Assembly: GCA_019694595.1 (NCBI GenBank)
Contig: JAIBBQ010000005.1
Span: 1 to 64,000 of the forward strand
From: Myxococcaceae bacterium
Lineage (GTDB): Bacteria; Myxococcota; Myxococcia; Myxococcales; Myxococcaceae
Length of the DNA stretch: 64,000 nucleotides
Reading direction: 5' to 3'
A model generated the notes under the pieces. That model was not told the origin of the DNA. It did not search any database and worked only from the letters and a program-made list of their open reading frames with translations. Shown piece after piece: positions 818 to 62,459 of this stretch. Position 1 is the first letter of the stretch, and every line of letters starts with the position of its first letter. Both the position numbers and the translations under genes were made by a program.

Positions 818-2718
<1,901 letters not shown>

Positions 2719-2722
<4 letters not shown>

Positions 2723-38679: not shown

Positions 38680-40875
38680 TCAGCCGCCGAACAGGCCCTT
38701 GAGCCAGCCGAGGAACCCCTTCTTCGGCTTGGCCTCGGCAGGGGGCGCCGCGGCGGCGGGGCCGGGCACCGGGGCGAGCTTGGCGGCGCTCACCTTGGTG
38801 GAAGCGGGCGCGGGCGGGGCACCCGGCGCCGCTGCGGCGTCGCCCAGCTTCTGGCGCACGGTCGCGGGGGTGTCCTTGGTGGTGAGCGTCACCTTGACCT
38901 CGCGCCCGGTCGTCTCCTCGCGGGCGGTGAGGTTGAGCAGGCACTCGCTGGTGACCTCGAACGAGAGCTCGACGTGCACCGAGCCCTTGGGGCCCTTGGG
39001 CAGCCCGGTGAGCTTCACCGTGCCCAGGTACTCGTTGTCGAGCGCGCCGTTGCCTTCGCCCTGGAAGACGGTGAGCTCGAGCTCGGGCTGATCGTCGCGC
39101 GTGGTGTGGTGCACGTGCGAGCGCTTGGTGGGCAGGGTGGTGTTGCGGGGGATCACCGGCTTGAAGCGCCCCCCGGGCAGGCCCACGCCGATGGTCATCG
39201 GCAGCACGTCGATGAGCACGATGCCGTCGGCGTTTGACAAGGAATTCGCCAGCAGCGCGGCGCCGAGCGCCACCGCCTCGTCGGGGTGCACGTTGTGGGC
39301 GGGCTTCTTGCCGAAGAACGCCTCGATCTGCTCGTGCACCAGCGGGAAGCGGCTCTGGCCACCGACGAGGATCACCTCGTCGATGTCGGACGCCTTCAGG
39401 TTGCGCGCCGCGAGCACCTCGCCGCAGACCTTGATGGTGCGGGCCACCAGCTCGCGGGTGAGATCGTAGAGCGCGGTGCGGGTGAGCGTGACGTCGAGGT
39501 CGAGCGGCTTGCCGTCGACCATGGTGAGGAAGGGCACGTGGACCCGCGCCTCGGTGCGCTCGGACAGCGCGCACTTGGCCCGCTCCGCCGCGTCGAGCAC
39601 GCGCTGCATCGCCACCCGGTCGCCCTGGAACTTGAGCCCGGTCTTCGCGGTGAACTGCTCGAAGAGGTACGCCACGATGGCGTTGTCGAAGTCGAGACCG
39701 CCGAGGAACGTGTCGCCGCCCGTCGAGACCACCTCGTAGATGGTGTCGTTCAGCTCCAGCACCGAGGCGTCGAAGGTGCCGCCGCCGAGGTCGTAGATCA
39801 GGATGCGCTTCGACAGCTTGCGCCCGTAGCCGAACGCCAGCGCCGCCGCGGTGGGCTCGTTGACGATGCGCTCCACGTGGAGCCCTGCCAGCCGGCCCGC
39901 TTCCCGCACCGCCTGGCGCTGGTTGTCGTTGTAGTAGGCGGGCACGGTGATCACCGCGCGGGACACCGGCGTGGCGAGCTGGAGCTGCGCGAGCTCGCGG
40001 ACCTCGCGGAGGATCAGCGCCGAGATCTGCTGCAGCGTGTAGACGCGGTCGCCCAGGCGGACCGCCGCGTCGCCTTCGGGGCCAGGGCAGATCTCGTAGG
40101 CGAAGCGGTCCTTGATCTCCTGCACCACCGGCGACTCGAAGGCGCGGCCCACCAGGCGCTTGGCGCCGTACACCGTGAGCCGGGGGTTGGTGAGCAGCTG
40201 GCCCTTCGCGGGGTGCCCGACCACCAGCTTGCCGCGGGCGTTGAGCGCGAGGATCGACGGCACCGTGTGGTACCCCTCGCGGGACTTGAGCACCTGCGGC
40301 TTGCCGCCCTTCACGAAGGCCGCGCAGGAGTTCGTGGTGCCGAGGTCGATGCCGATGATCGGCCCGTCGCGCTTGGGCGGCTCGGTGGGCGCCTCGAAGG
40401 CCGGAGCGGCGATGGTCGGGGCCGCGCTCTGCACCACGACGCGGCCCTTCTCCTGCGACGGCAGCGGCTTCTCGACCTGCGACGCGGGCACCACCGGGGC
40501 CACCGCCGCCGGGTTCTTCTCCGCGGGGCCCACGTTGGCGGGGAGCGGCGGCTCGTCGCTCTTGGCGTGGGGCAGGGTGGCCGCCACCGAGTCGAGGAAG
40601 CGCTGGCTCGCCTCGTCCGGCTGGAGGAACTTGATGCCCATGCCGGTGACGCCGGTGCCCGACGCCCCGGTGACCCAGGCCACCTCGGCCTGCGCGTGGA
40701 GCAAGCGGTCGCCGTTCGACAGCCGCAGGTCGAGGACGATCTTGGTCCCTGGCGCCTTGAGCGACTTGGCGCGGAGGTAGATGCCCCCCCGGGTCAAGTT
40801 CACGCCGTACTTCTGAAGGAATTCCTCGGGGCTGCCAAACGGCAGCTTCACCGACAGGCCAATCGGGTCCGCCAC
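38680..40875 (-). CDS. PilZ domain-Hsp70 (DnaK-like) fusion protein, 731 aa
   Basis: Residues about 5-110 form a PilZ-like domain of the Myxococcus-type ([40 protein letters not shown]). A Pro/Ala linker leads to an Hsp70 nucleotide-binding domain from about 172: phosphate 1 motif [12 protein letters not shown] at 175, phosphate 2 [11 protein letters not shown], adenosine motif [11 protein letters not shown] substrate-binding beta domain follows (about 550-680), but the usual alpha-helical lid is absent, replaced by an Ala/Pro-rich tail ending in an amphipathic, Trp/Phe-rich helix ([14 protein letters not shown]). GTG 40875 was chosen because the PilZ domain starts there; GTG 40917 adds a basic 14-residue tail. 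Divergent from the VWA gene. Confidence 0.88.
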
Positions 40876-40983
40876 GGGACGCCTAGTGTCCTTGGTGCGA
40901 CGCCGGTTTGCCAGCACTTTGGCGGGGGTGGGAACCCTGCCGCCCCCGCGATGTCGTGACCGTTCGTAGATCGTTCCCCACCA

Positions 40984-46479: not shown

Positions 46480-48462
46480 TCAGCGCTTGGCCGGCACCAT
46501 CGCGCGCACCTTGGCCCGGCGCTCGCAGGCATCGTGGTAGCCGGCGTTGCACGCCGTCTCGTACAGCCCGTCGGCGCGGTCGATGGTGGCGCGGCTCAGC
46601 GGCGGCGCCTTGACCAGGTTGTCCGCCAGCCAGGCGCAGGACAGCGCCTCGCCGCCCGCGCAGCCCTGCTCGAGCAGCTGGGTCGACCGCTCGAGGTTCA
46701 CCGGGCCCCCGATGCCTTGCTCGTCGAAGAGCGCGACCGCACGGCACGCGGTGGCGATCTTCTTCTCGCACGCGGCCTCGAGGTGCGGCCGGTACTTCGG
46801 GCCTTCGGTGTTCACGTCGGCCCGCATCACCGCCGAGAGCAGATCGTCGCACCCGGCGACCGAGCCGCCGGCACAGGCGGCGTCGAACAGCTCGAACTCA
46901 CGCTTGGGGTCGCGCTTCTCCTTGGGCCGCTTGGCGAGCGCCTCGCCGAGGTTCGTGCAGCCCAGCGGGTCCGCAGTCGCGCAGGCCTTCTCGAGGAGCC
47001 CGATGGCCTTCTCGAGGTCCACCGCGCCGGGGCCCAGGTCGCCGTCGCGGTAGAGCACGCCAGCCGAATTGCACCCGCGCACGTCGCCCAGGGTGCAGGC
47101 CTTCTCGTGGAACTTCACCGCCTCGTTGAGGTACCCGGGCGTGGTCACCGTCGTGAGCTCGACCCCGATGCCCTGGGACAGGAACCGGCCCACGAGCCAG
47201 CACGACTCCTTGGTGTCCAGCGCGCAGCCCGCGCGCGCCGTCTCCAGCGCCTCCGCGGCCTTGCCGGGCAGCTGGTAGATCGCGACCGCGAGGCCCGTGC
47301 AGGCCTTGCCGTACTTGAGCGCGCAGCCGGCCCGGTACGCCGCGCTCACCGCCTCGTCGTCGATGGGGCTCTGGTTCTCGAGCCACAGCGCCAGGTTGAA
47401 GCACCCGCCGCCGAGCTTCTCGTCGCAGGCCTTCGACCACAGCGCCTTGGCCTTCTCGTCGGTGAAGGGCTTCGCCGACGAGCGATCGTAGGCGTTGGCG
47501 AGGTGGAAGCAGGCCTCGGCGTCTCCCGAGGCGCACGGCTTCTCGAGGATCGCCACTGCCTGTTCCAGCTGCGGTGGCTCGCCGTAGATGAGGTTCTGCG
47601 CGTGCATTAGGCAGGCGCGCTTGGAGCCCGCGGTGCAGGCCGCGGCGAGCTCCGGCCCCAGCGCCTCGGCCTTGGCCTTGCCGAGCTCGACGAGGAGCGA
47701 CGGGCGCTCGCGCGCCGCGATGCCCACCGCCACCACCGTCGTCGTCAAGAGCCCCAGGCCCACCGCGGTGGCCAGGCCGCCCACCACCCGGGCCAGCGCG
47801 CCTTCCTTGAGCCACACCAGCCCGAGGAGCGCACCCGCGAAGGCGCCGCCGAAGTGGGCTCCGAAGTCGATGTTGCCGCCGCTGCGCACGGCGACGATCG
47901 GCAGCAGCGAAGGGACCAGCAGGCGGGCCACCTGCACCTGGATCTGGCTGCGCGCCGGGCCTTCGATGCGCATCGCGACCACCATCACCGCCGCGAGCAG
48001 CGCCATCACCGCGCCCGAGGCGCCCACCGAGACGACGTTCTCCTTGGTCACCGCCAGCGACGCCAGCGAGCCCGCGAGCGCGCCCACGGTCCAGGTGGCG
48101 AGCCACCGGCCCCGGCCCACCAGGCTCTCGAGCAGCATGCCCGCCATGGCGAGCGCGAAGCCGTTGAGCGCGATGTGAATCAGGTCGCCGTGGAGCAGGG
48201 GCGCGAGGAACACCCGCCACCACTCGTGGTCGCCCACCACCAGCGTGCGCATGGTGCCGCCCATCAGCACCAGCGTGTCGACGGAAGCGGCCAGCGCCCC
48301 GGTGGTCGGGTCGGGCGAGGTGCCCACCTCCACCAGGAACCCCACCACCAGCACGAAGAGGGTGGTGAGGGTGAGCCACGGCAGCCCGCCCCGTCCGATC
48401 GGTGCCGCCGGGGGAGGTGCGGCCGGTTCCCCGAGCAGCGAAGGACCCTGGGCGGGCGTCAT
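46480..48462 (-). CDS. Rhomboid intramembrane protease fused to Sel1-like repeats, 660 aa
   Basis: The N-terminal about 250 residues are a rhomboid domain: HGDLIHIALN with the conserved H-x3-N (His96/Asn100), catalytic Ser149 in VGASGAV, and catalytic His203 in GAHFGG, so the dyad is complete. About six or seven transmembrane helices end at LLTTTVVAVGIAA. The remaining about 400 residues are Sel1-like repeats of 34-40 residues (for example ACFHLANAYDRSS, GCFNLALWLENQ, GCTNLGEALAKR), each with cysteines at fixed positions that could bridge neighbouring repeats. It starts at ATG 48462, 9 bases after the S46 peptidase gene, so the two are probably co-transcribed. Confidence 0.9.
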   Translation of the reverse strand: MTPAQGPSLLGEPAAPPPAAPIGRGGLPWLTLTTLFVLVVGFLVEVGTSPDPTTGALAASVDTLVLMGGTMRTLVVGDHEWWRVFLAPLLHGDLIHIALNGFALAMAGMLLESLVGRGRWLATWTVGALAGSLASLAVTKENVVSVGASGAVMALLAAVMVVAMRIEGPARSQIQVQVARLLVPSLLPIVAVRSGGNIDFGAHFGGAFAGALLGLVWLKEGALARVVGGLATAVGLGLLTTTVVAVGIAARERPSLLVELGKAKAEALGPELAAACTAGSKRACLMHAQNLIYGEPPQLEQAVAILEKPCASGDAEACFHLANAYDRSSAKPFTDEKAKALWSKACDEKLGGGCFNLALWLENQSPIDDEAVSAAYRAGCALKYGKACTGLAVAIYQLPGKAAEALETARAGCALDTKESCWLVGRFLSQGIGVELTTVTTPGYLNEAVKFHEKACTLGDVRGCNSAGVLYRDGDLGPGAVDLEKAIGLLEKACATADPLGCTNLGEALAKRPKEKRDPKREFELFDAACAGGSVAGCDDLLSAVMRADVNTEGPKYRPHLEAACEKKIATACRAVALFDEQGIGGPVNLERSTQLLEQGCAGGEALSCAWLADNLVKAPPLSRATIDRADGLYETACNAGYHDACERRAKVRAMVPAKR

Positions 48463-48471
48463 GGGCGCGCC

Positions 48472-50550
48472 TTACTTGTCGCCGGCCTTGGCGGCGCCGG
48501 CAGGGCGCAGCTCGTCGACCAGACGCTTGGCGCCGTAGATCTTCTCCAGCGCCTCGGTGATCGCCGCCGAGTGCACCGCGACGGCGCGGTTGAGCTTCTC
48601 GTCGAAGCCGTACTCACCGCCCAGCGAGTGGATGTTGCCGTCGAACACCAGGCCGATGACCTCGCCCTTGGCGTTCACCATCGGCGAGCCGGAGTTGCCC
48701 CCGATGATGTCGTTGGTGGTGCAGAGGTTGAACGGCGTCTCCAGCAAGAGCTTCGACTTGGCGTCGAGCCAGGTCTTGGGCAGCGCGAAGGGGTCGGCCC
48801 CGGTGTGGCGCTCGAAGGCGCCGGCGAGGGTGGTGAACGGCCGGTAGTCACCGGTGTCGTCCTTGAAGCCCTTGATGGTGCCGTAGCTGATGCGCTGGGT
48901 GAAGGTGGCGTCGGGGTAGCTCGAGGTGCCGTTGAGCGCGAAGTTCGCCTTCGCCAGCAGCTCGCCCTGCTTCTTGAGCGGCCCTTCCACTTCCGCTTCC
49001 CACTGCTTGCGCACCGCGCGGGCGTCGGCGTCGTAGAGCCGCGCGAGCTCGATCATCGGGTCCTTCGCCGCGTCGATCTTCGCCTTGCCGCCTTCGAACA
49101 GCGCGGCGCGCACCTTCTCGTCCTTCAGCTTGGTGCCCTTGACCGCCGCCGCGGCGAGCGCTTCCGGGCTCTGCTTGCCGAAGATCTTCTTCACCACCGC
49201 GTTGTCGGCGCCCAGCTCCTCGCGGAGCTTGGTGAGCTGCCAGCCGAGCATCATGGTCTCGAACTCGTCGTAGATCGGCGCCTTCTTGGTGATCGACTGC
49301 TTGAGCTGCGGCAGCCGGGCGTCGGAGAACTCCTTGAGCCGCTCGCCGTTGGGCTTGGGCAGCTCGTCGCCCGAGCGCAGCAGGGTGCGCGCGAAGCCCA
49401 GCAGCTCGCTGGAGTTGGTGGTCTCGAGCGTGGCGTAGCTCTTGCGGAGCAGGCGGGCCTTCTCCTCGGTCGCGCTGATCGAGTCCCACACGCCGCCGTA
49501 CTGCTTCTTGAGCTCGGGGTTGGCGTCGATCTTCGCGCGGAAGGCCTTCTCCGCGGCCACGCGGCCTTCGAAGAACGCCTTGTCGGCGAGCGCCTGGTGC
49601 CGGCCCTTGTACGCCTTGATGGCGTTCTCGACGTAGAAGAGCGTGTCTTCCGAGTGGCGCTGCTGCTCGGCGCCGCGGTGCGCGTACTCGTGGAGCATGC
49701 CGCGCAGCTCGGACAGGCGCGTCAGCCCGGCGGGCCACTTCACGTCGCGGTCGAACTCCAGCTGGCTCACGGTGAGCAGGCGGCTGGTGCCACCGGGGTT
49801 GCCGACCACGAACGCCAGGTCGTCTTCCTTGGGCAGCTCGGAGGACCACTTGAGGTAGTGGTCCATCTTCATCGGGGCGCCGTCCTTGCCGTAGACGCGC
49901 ACGAAGGCCGAGTCGAGGTCGTAGCGGGGGAAGTTGAAGTTGTCCGGGTCGCCGCCGAAGAACGCGATCGCCACTTCGGGCGCGAACACCAGCCGCACGT
50001 CCTGGAAGCGGCGGTACTTGTAGAGCTCGAAGCGGCCGCCGCGGTACAGCGAGATGACCTCGCAGCGCAGCTCGTCGCTGGTGCCGCAGGCCTTCTCGAG
50101 CTCGGCCAGCTTGGCCTTCTGCACCTCGTTGAACTTCGCGTCGTCGACGCCCTTGGTGGCTTCCTGGACCTGCTTGGTGACGTCGGTCATCTCCACCAGC
50201 TGGTTGATCTCCATGCCGGGGCAGGCCTTCTCGTCCTTCTGCGTCTTCGCGAACCAGCCGTTCTTCACGAAGTCCTGCTTGGGGGTCGACAGGTCCTGCA
50301 CGCACGAGTGCACGCAGTGGTGGTTGGTCATCACCAGGCCGGTCTCGGAGACGATCGACGCCGAGCAGCCGCCCGCGAGCCGCACCGCCGACAGGCGGAC
50401 GTGGTCGAGCCAGTCCTGCGTCGGGGCCGAGCCGTACTTCTTCTTCATCGCCTCCGCGGGGAAGGAATTGAGCAGCCACATGCCTTCGTCGGCGAAGGCG
50501 GGCAGGGCGAGAACCGAGAGTACGGCCGCGAGCTTCAGCGAGCGCGACAT
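48472..50550 (-). CDS. S46-family dipeptidyl-peptidase (DPP7/DPP11 type)
   Basis: Exported serine exopeptidase that removes dipeptides from oligopeptides. A 692-aa protein with a cleavable signal peptide (LAAVLSVLALPAFADEG). S46 hallmarks: DEGMWLLNSFP at the mature N-terminus, the catalytic-His region MTNHHCVHS (His77/His78), and the nucleophile in GGNSGSPMVN (Ser620), followed by GLVFDGN. The specificity-determining residue near the C-terminus (Gly in DPP7, Arg in DPP11) could not be assigned by eye. ATG 50550 has an AAGGAG site 5 bases upstream; the track upstream of it is not signal-like. Followed closely by the rhomboid gene. Confidence 0.93.
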   Translation of the reverse strand: MSRSLKLAAVLSVLALPAFADEGMWLLNSFPAEAMKKKYGSAPTQDWLDHVRLSAVRLAGGCSASIVSETGLVMTNHHCVHSCVQDLSTPKQDFVKNGWFAKTQKDEKACPGMEINQLVEMTDVTKQVQEATKGVDDAKFNEVQKAKLAELEKACGTSDELRCEVISLYRGGRFELYKYRRFQDVRLVFAPEVAIAFFGGDPDNFNFPRYDLDSAFVRVYGKDGAPMKMDHYLKWSSELPKEDDLAFVVGNPGGTSRLLTVSQLEFDRDVKWPAGLTRLSELRGMLHEYAHRGAEQQRHSEDTLFYVENAIKAYKGRHQALADKAFFEGRVAAEKAFRAKIDANPELKKQYGGVWDSISATEEKARLLRKSYATLETTNSSELLGFARTLLRSGDELPKPNGERLKEFSDARLPQLKQSITKKAPIYDEFETMMLGWQLTKLREELGADNAVVKKIFGKQSPEALAAAAVKGTKLKDEKVRAALFEGGKAKIDAAKDPMIELARLYDADARAVRKQWEAEVEGPLKKQGELLAKANFALNGTSSYPDATFTQRISYGTIKGFKDDTGDYRPFTTLAGAFERHTGADPFALPKTWLDAKSKLLLETPFNLCTTNDIIGGNSGSPMVNAKGEVIGLVFDGNIHSLGGEYGFDEKLNRAVAVHSAAITEALEKIYGAKRLVDELRPAGAAKAGDK

Positions 50551-60572: not shown

Positions 60573-61124
60573 CTACTGGGTCAGGGAGATCTTGAGCGAC
60601 TTGATCTTCACGTCGGTCTTCGGCCGGTCGTTCGCGTCCTTGGGGATCGCGTTGGCCACCCGGTCCACCACGTCCTGGCCGGAGACGACCTCGCCGAAGA
60701 TGGTGTGGCGGTTGTTGAGCCACGGGGTCGGCGCCACGGTGATGAAGAACTGCGACCCGTTGGTGCCCGGGCCGGCGTTCGCCATCGCCAGCAGGCCCGA
60801 CTTGTCGAACTTGCGGCCGGAACCGAACTCGTCCTCGAACTTGTAGCCCGGGCCCCCGGTGCCGCGGCCGAGCGGGTCGCCGCCCTGCACCATGAAGTTG
60901 TTGATGCAGCGGTGGAAGATGGTGCCGTCGTACAGCGGCTTGTTCTTCTGCTTCTGGTCGTTCGCGGGGTGGGTCCACTCGCGCTCGCCGGTCGCCAGAC
61001 CCACGAAGTTCTCCACCGTCTTCGGCGCGTCCTTGCTGAAGAGCCGCACCACCACCTTGCCCTCGGTGGTGTCGAAGGTCGCGAACAGCTCCTTGCCGGC
61101 CTTTGCTTCGTCCATCATGCCCAT
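60573..61124 (-). CDS. Cyclophilin-type peptidylprolyl isomerase, cytoplasmic form, 183 aa
   Basis: Accelerates cis-trans isomerisation of prolyl bonds. No signal peptide: MGMMDEAKAGKELFATFDT leads straight into the fold, so it is probably cytoplasmic. Signatures: YDGTIFHRCINNFMVQGGD with the catalytic Arg of FHR, GGPGYKFEDEF, LLAMANAGPGTNGSQFFIT (Gln/Phe of the active site) and LNNRHTIFGEVV. It is the third of three tandem cyclophilins on the minus strand, 43 bases from era. Confidence 0.95.
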   Translation of the reverse strand: MGMMDEAKAGKELFATFDTTEGKVVVRLFSKDAPKTVENFVGLATGEREWTHPANDQKQKNKPLYDGTIFHRCINNFMVQGGDPLGRGTGGPGYKFEDEFGSGRKFDKSGLLAMANAGPGTNGSQFFITVAPTPWLNNRHTIFGEVVSGQDVVDRVANAIPKDANDRPKTDVKIKSLKISLTQ

Positions 61125-61149: not shown

Positions 61150-61773
61150 TCACGGCTGTGAATCGGACAGGGTCACGTGCTTCAGGGTGATCGCGGGGTC
61201 GGGGCGGTCGCCGGGGGCCTTGGGGGCCTTGGAGATCGCCTCCACCACGTCGTACCCCTTCACCACCTCCCCGAAGATGGTGTGCTTGTTGTTGAGGTAC
61301 GTCGGCGTCGACGTGGTGATGAAGAACTGGGAGCCGTTGGTGTTGGGCCCCGCGTTGGCCATGGCGAGCAGGCCGACGCGGTCGAAGGTCTTGCCCGACT
61401 GGAACTCGTCGCCGAAGTCGTAGCCCGGGCCACCGGTGCCGTTGCCCAGGGGGTCGCCGCCCTGCACCATGAAGCCTTCGATCACCCGGTGGAAGACGGT
61501 GCCGTCGTACAGCGGCTTGCCCGTCTGCTGGGCGCGGGTCCGCGGGTCGGTCCACGGCTTCTCGCCCGAGGCGAGCCCGACGAAGTTCTCGACGGTGACC
61601 GGCGCTTCCTTCGAGTAGAGCTTGATGACCACCGAGCCCATCGACGTCTCGAAGGTGGCGTAGATCGGCGTGCCGGCCTTGGCCGCCGCCATCCACTTCC
61701 CGGCGCCGCCCTTCTCGCTCTTGGGGCACGCGGCGAGCGCGAGCGCCGCCAGGAGCAGCCCGGCGCGCTTCAC
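61150..61773 (-). CDS. Cyclophilin-type peptidylprolyl isomerase, lipoprotein form, 207 aa
   Basis: A lipoprotein signal ending LALAAC (Cys near 16) precedes a cyclophilin domain with the same motifs as its neighbours: YDGTVFHRVIEGFMVQGGD, LLAMANAGPNTNGSQFFIT and LNNKHTIFGEVV. It is therefore expected in the periplasm, tethered to a membrane. Starts at GTG 61773, overlapping the stop of the third cyclophilin gene (GTGA). It is likely a duplicate of its neighbours with a changed targeting signal. Confidence 0.94.
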   Translation of the reverse strand: MKRAGLLLAALALAACPKSEKGGAGKWMAAAKAGTPIYATFETSMGSVVIKLYSKEAPVTVENFVGLASGEKPWTDPRTRAQQTGKPLYDGTVFHRVIEGFMVQGGDPLGNGTGGPGYDFGDEFQSGKTFDRVGLLAMANAGPNTNGSQFFITTSTPTYLNNKHTIFGEVVKGYDVVEAISKAPKAPGDRPDPAITLKHVTLSDSQP

Positions 61774-62459
61774 TTCTTCTCCTTCACCGGCTCCGCCGCG
61801 ACGGCGGCCTTGCCCGCGGGCGCCTTCGCCGGGCCCTTGTCGCTGATGGTCAGCGACTGGATCACGACTTCCTTCACCGGGCGGTCGCCCGGCAGGCGCT
61901 CGACGTTGCTGATCTTCTCCACCACGTCGTAGCCCTGCACCACCTCGCCGAAGATGGTGTGGCGGTTGTTCAGGTACGTCGGCGTCGAGGTGGTGATGAA
62001 GAACTGCGAGCCGTTGGTGCCCGGGCCGGCGTTGGCCATCGCCAGGAGCCCCACCTTGTCGAAGCCCCGGCCCGACTGGAACTCGTCCTCGAACTTGTAG
62101 CCCGGGCCGCCGCGGCCGCTGCCTTCCGGGTCGCCGCCCTGGATCATGAAGTTGGGGATCACGCGGTGGAAGATGACGCCGTCGTAGAAGTGCTTCTTCA
62201 CCCCGGCGGCGGTCGCCTTCTCACCCATCGCCAGGCCGACGAAGTTGGCCACCGTCTTGGGGGCGTCCTTCGAGAAGAGCTGCAGCACGATGGTGCCCTG
62301 GTTGGTCACCATCGTCGCGTAGAGCGGCGTGCCCTTCTCGGCGAGCCCCATCCACTTGGCGCCGGTCGCGCCGGCCGTGGGCGGGGCGGCCTTGGGGGCA
62401 TCGGCGGCGAGCGCCAGGGAGGACAGCAACACGGTCGCAGCAAGCGTCAGTCGCGTCAT
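61770..62459 (-). CDS. Cyclophilin-type peptidylprolyl isomerase, soluble exported form, 229 aa
   Basis: A cleavable Sec signal (MTRLTLAATVLLSSLALA, with the site ALA-AD) and an Ala/Pro/Thr-rich linker lead to a cyclophilin domain (YDGVIFHRVIPNFMIQGGD, LLAMANAGPGTNGSQFFIT, LNNRHTIFGEVV) and an Ala/Lys/Pro tail. Compared with the other two it lacks the 8-10-residue loop after GE (WTHPANDQ-type insert) in the third beta-turn. First of the three tandem genes, 28 bases after rnc. Confidence 0.93.
   Translation of the reverse strand: MTRLTLAATVLLSSLALAADAPKAAPPTAGATGAKWMGLAEKGTPLYATMVTNQGTIVLQLFSKDAPKTVANFVGLAMGEKATAAGVKKHFYDGVIFHRVIPNFMIQGGDPEGSGRGGPGYKFEDEFQSGRGFDKVGLLAMANAGPGTNGSQFFITTSTPTYLNNRHTIFGEVVQGYDVVEKISNVERLPGDRPVKEVVIQSLTISDKGPAKAPAGKAAVAAEPVKEKK

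Follow-up and report, generated by a model that had tools for sequence, protein, structure and literature searches.

In the window, a stretch of 64,000 nucleotides from a Myxococcaceae bacterium, one gene encodes a 660-residue protein in which a rhomboid protease core is followed by a seventh transmembrane helix (TM7) and by a long domain of Sel1-like repeats, each with a pair of cysteines. The repeats are of the Helicobacter cysteine-rich (Hcp) type. The protein is probably a "6+1" rhomboid protease with a periplasmic, disulfide-stapled superhelix next to the active site; clients or a partner would bind to it, so that cleavage is selective or restrained. The features are collected in Table 1. 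The gene is a single uninterrupted open reading frame, and its third codon positions have a GC content of 0.95, a usual value for the surrounding genes. The proposal of a rhomboid joined to a long Sel1 array, made in the initial annotation, is upheld by the Pfam matches, by the match to HcpC and by the occurrence of the fusion elsewhere. The source genome is fragmented (394 contigs), and two genes might have been joined through an assembly or sequencing error. This has a negligible chance of being true, as the same fusion recurs in three other genomes, in two of which it is orthologous over almost the full length. The reading as two separate genes, which the initial annotation had foreseen, was rejected on the presence of the fusion in four genomes.

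Table 1. Features of the fusion gene and of the adjacent peptidase gene, in window coordinates.
Feature	Position	Strand	Evidence
Whole gene: rhomboid protease, TM7 and Hcp-type Sel1-like repeats	46480..48462	-	Single ORF; fusion recurs in three further genomes
Rhomboid core (TM1-TM6), residues 26-220	47803..48387	-	PF01694, 89.4 bits; model aligns to E. coli GlpG
Catalytic Ser149 (GASG)	48016..48018	-	Invariant across the 17 aligned sequences
Catalytic His203 (AHFGG)	47854..47856	-	Invariant across the 17 aligned sequences
TM7 helix, residues 222-259, with peak hydrophobicity at 230-248	47686..47799	-	Hydropathy 1.99; AlphaFold2 helix 222-259
11 Sel1-like repeats, residues 265-660	46483..47670	-	Cysteine spacing and invariance; HcpC best PDB sequence match, Z 20.6 by fold
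Cysteine pairs 276/284, 310/318, 346/354, 380/388, 413/421, 456/464, 494/502, 530/538, 565/573, 601/609, 638/646			
S46 dipeptidyl peptidase gene	48472..50550	-	PF10459, 742.9 bits; ends 9 nt upstream of the rhomboid gene

The Pfam rhomboid family matches residues 79-219 with a score well above its cut-off of 22.6 bits. Both residues of the catalytic dyad are located in the correct motifs, which confirms the complete dyad reported in the initial annotation, and Asn100 of the HxxxN motif and Arg83 of the WR motif in loop 1 are likewise invariant in the 17-sequence alignment. Profile alignment shows GPAG in place of GASG in the inactive iRhoms, so that by its sequence the window protein is no pseudoprotease. 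The catalytic motifs are thus intact and the protein is predicted to be catalytically competent. The core is also matched by the rhombosortase model TIGR03902, which would suggest a sorting protease trimming the carboxy-terminal anchors of surface proteins. However, the score of 40.7 bits does not reach half of the curated equivalog cut-off of 84, and sorting of the MYXO-CTERM tag in myxobacteria is assigned to myxosortase, a different intramembrane protease (PMC11980579). A rhombosortase-like role is therefore very improbable, and this identity was rejected on the score. The source genome holds four other rhomboids, of which one paralogue (L003:1147-2916) has a TM7 and a tail of about 300 residues that ends in tetratricopeptide (TPR) repeats and lacks cysteine pairs.

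Residues 276-646 contain every one of the protein's 22 cysteines, arranged as 11 pairs with a spacing of exactly 8 residues. When the domain is shuffled (20,000 trials), a mean of 1.2 and a maximum of 6 pairs with this spacing are obtained. The two regularly placed cysteines per repeat described in the initial annotation are thus exact, and its estimate of about 400 residues of repeats was right. With the Sel1 family of Pfam, the window protein gives only a weak match (27.2 bits against a cut-off of 30.7); its two orthologues reach 69.1 and 49.2 bits and a third, more distant fusion (L064) reaches 222.9 bits over nine stretches, all above the cut-off. Among proteins of solved structure, the best sequence relatives of the repeats are HcpC (E 6.1e-21) and then HcpB, both from Helicobacter pylori, and the cysteines coincide in the alignments. 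In these two proteins, successive repeats are linked end to start by the disulfides of the cysteine pairs (PMC3851747; see also PMC12904459). The asparagine two residues past the second cysteine, a consensus position of Sel1 repeats, is kept in only two of the 11 repeats (Asn356 and Asn504), and the mode of peptide binding in the groove of Sel1-like (SLR) and TPR repeats may therefore fail along the array. Conservation is among the highest in repeats 5-7 and peaks in repeat 6 (28-39% of positions invariant), which makes these repeats, and repeat 6 foremost, a candidate binding site.

An AlphaFold2 model was built from the 17 aligned sequences, three of which cover the repeat half, and has a mean pLDDT of 90 and a pTM of 0.75. 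The approximately 25 residues preceding TM1 have low pLDDT. When residues 26-221 are compared with E. coli GlpG using VIA-align, Z-scores of about 17-19 and r.m.s.d. values of 2.4-3.1 are obtained. The repeat half forms an alpha/alpha superhelix like that of HcpC, onto which residues 384-660 can be superposed with an r.m.s.d. of 4.0 over 260 residues, at a sequence identity of 24%. Every cysteine pair spans the short loop that joins two helices, at the end of a hairpin, as it does in HcpB and HcpC (PMC3851747). Chains of SEL1L are present among the Foldseek fold matches, and the AlgK scaffold is matched as well. Because repeat proteins match one another easily, the repeats are named solely after HcpC, where the match is also backed by sequence.

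Hydropathy analysis locates the six helices of the core at residues 26-44 (TM1), 97-115 (TM2), 121-139 (TM3), 146-164 (TM4), 174-192 (TM5) and 200-218 (TM6), followed by the further helix at 230-248. TM7 recurs in the three other fusions (L007, L008 and L064) and in those TPR-tailed relatives that were analysed, and the loop between TM6 and TM7 has a positive charge, which is clearest in the orthologues. In the rhomboid core, as seen in GlpG, the amino- and carboxy-termini are both cytoplasmic; a six-helix core of this kind, extended by TM7, would therefore place the repeats in the periplasm. Taking this topology together with the cysteine pattern, the repeat domain most likely resides outside the cytoplasm, and the cysteine pairs, being then in an extracytoplasmic tail, most likely form disulfide staples. 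A protein of the VKOR family, a periplasmic disulfide source, is encoded in all four fusion genomes. The suggestion in the initial annotation that the domain is located outside the cytoplasm and stapled by its cysteines is thereby supported, at the level of prediction; its further proposal, that the array presents or retains substrates, is hypothetical.

Two full-length orthologous fusions are found in other genera of the same family, in the metagenome-assembled genomes Myxococcales SJ252 (L007/L028) and Myxococcaceae M069S2SP1A73QC (L008/L029). Their identity to the window protein is 50-53% in the rhomboid core and 32-34% in the repeat half, and all 22 cysteines are invariant across the three proteins. 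The repeats of the two orthologues correspond to each other in order from 1 to 11, while the register of the window protein is clear only for repeats 5-8. The third fusion, L064, belongs to a different family within the order and contains 13 C-7-C pairs, with a strict period of 36 residues except for the first pair. When 84,980 genomes were scanned with the window protein as single query, no matches were obtained; with the alignment as query, the same scan returned only the two known orthologues and relatives without Sel1 tails. A rhomboid-Sel1 fusion was not found in the open-access literature. The fusion is real, and well conserved where present.

Close members of this rhomboid subfamily are present in about 20 of the 195 genomes searched in the phylum, and also in some Alphaproteobacteria. 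Most of the Myxococcota members that are not fusions have an amino-terminal domain of about 200 amino acids, a TM7 and a short TPR tail; in three relatives (L009, L011 and L014) the tail is nearly absent. Near the carboxy-terminus of L012, L018, L031, L035, L037 and L051, two cysteines are located about 20 residues apart. These could possibly form a single disulfide, which would also suit an extracytoplasmic tail. Because close relatives, including those of Myxococcus, bear short TPR tails, a solenoid module has been exchanged on the rhomboid core. Each fusion genome contains one subfamily member and, at the search threshold, no TPR-tailed copy, which is what replacement of one tail by the other would produce. 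In the tree, the three fusions from the family of the window are grouped (support 94/91) and L064 is located just outside; grouping all four in a single clade is not rejected (AU test, p 0.153). The Sel1-like tail was therefore gained either once, with later changes, or twice.

The rhomboid gene and the S46 dipeptidyl peptidase gene upstream of it are possibly co-transcribed. The adjacency is not conserved, the S46 genes of the two orthologue genomes being located on other contigs, and it therefore says little about function; an operon function with the peptidase was rejected, as the adjacency is absent where it could be tested. Elsewhere in the window, a 745-residue protein (38680-40917, reverse strand) contains an amino-terminal PilZ domain and, after it, an Hsp70 domain, and is possibly a chaperone tied to cyclic-di-GMP. 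Two adjoining genes for cyclophilin-type peptidyl-prolyl isomerases are found at 61150-62459 (reverse strand), with a neighbouring ORF (60573-61124) that looks similar by eye. FtsH is the partner of YqgP in Bacillus. An ORF that by eye is FtsH-like (818-2722, forward strand) lies some 44 kb away from the rhomboid gene and hence is unlinked to it.

We know of no substrates for most bacterial rhomboids. For the window protein, a rigid Sel1-like superhelix would be held in the periplasm after TM7, next to the active site. Client proteins or their tails in the periplasm, or else a partner, would bind to it there, and it would thereby select or restrain cleavage by the protease. That the tail is an exosite for clients or a regulator is the best reading because of the precedent of YqgP from Bacillus subtilis, whose carboxy-terminal extracellular domain is predicted to be an array of three TPR motifs and has been proposed as likely to bind proteins or peptides (PMC7231995); by this analogy, a client-binding or regulatory exosite is most likely. 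Deletion of the YqgP tail raised cleavage of both substrates tested four- to sixfold (PMC7231995), which would suit a domain that is mainly an inhibitory or gating lid. In that case the repeats would not recruit substrates; they would keep the active site restricted until displaced by a periplasmic signal or a ligand. A rigid array on one long helix beside the active site could work in this way, but YqgP has another repeat family and belongs to another phylum, and 11 repeats exceed what a lid needs; we regard such a lid as unlikely.

The repeats might instead tie the protease to an envelope structure, such as a peptidoglycan enzyme or an outer-membrane complex, with no role in the choice of substrate. 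Periplasmic Sel1 and TPR solenoids do serve as scaffolds elsewhere, AlgK being among the matches of the model, but no conserved gene neighbour presents itself as a partner: the S46 gene does not qualify, and the fusion contigs are short on the upstream side. Anchoring is accordingly quite doubtful. Little probability is also given to a one-chain bacterial counterpart of SEL1L-Derlin, independent of the eukaryotic one, in which the repeats would recognise damaged or orphan envelope proteins and the rhomboid would cleave them or pass them on to FtsH. In the favoured reading, with clients or a partner bound by the superhelix, the exosite would be large, rigid, soluble and expressible on its own, offering a handle for pulling down clients. 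The natural exchange of TPR and cysteine-paired SLR tails on the same core allows testing whether the tail sets specificity, and the SEL1L-Derlin analogy may provide a comparison case for the quality control of membrane proteins.

When the window protein is compared with YqgP (GluP), the two share a rhomboid core, which is active in YqgP, a TM7 and an extracytoplasmic alpha-solenoid tail, here predicted (PMC7231995). YqgP, however, has a cytosolic metal-sensing amino-terminal domain and only three predicted TPR motifs, whereas the window protein has an amino-terminus of 25 residues, with no sensor domain, and 11 cysteine-paired SLR repeats. The rhomboids with TPR tails from Myxococcus, Labrys and others (among them L012, L018, L031, L051 and L065) belong to the same subfamily, in one clade (support 100/98), with a TM7 and, in most, a solenoid tail; they differ in the amino-terminal domain that most of them carry and in their short TPR tails with two cysteines near the end. 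The statement in the initial annotation that rhomboids usually carry small extra domains is therefore overstated, since YqgP has the same layout and the close relatives are TPR-tailed. HcpB and HcpC share the SLR repeats, in which each helix hairpin has one C-7-C pair, but are secreted and free-standing, while the array of the window protein is joined to a membrane protease. In ER-associated degradation, the lumenal Sel1 repeats of SEL1L/Hrd3 are complexed with Derlin, a membrane protein of rhomboid fold; these are separate proteins in eukaryotes, however, and derlins are pseudoproteases. The crystallised repeats of SEL1L contain no disulfides (PMC4746701), and there is no evidence that the two pairings share a common descent. 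The layout of a rhomboid with an extracytoplasmic solenoid is thus known; what is new is the cysteine-paired tail of the Hcp type, not a new kind of enzyme.
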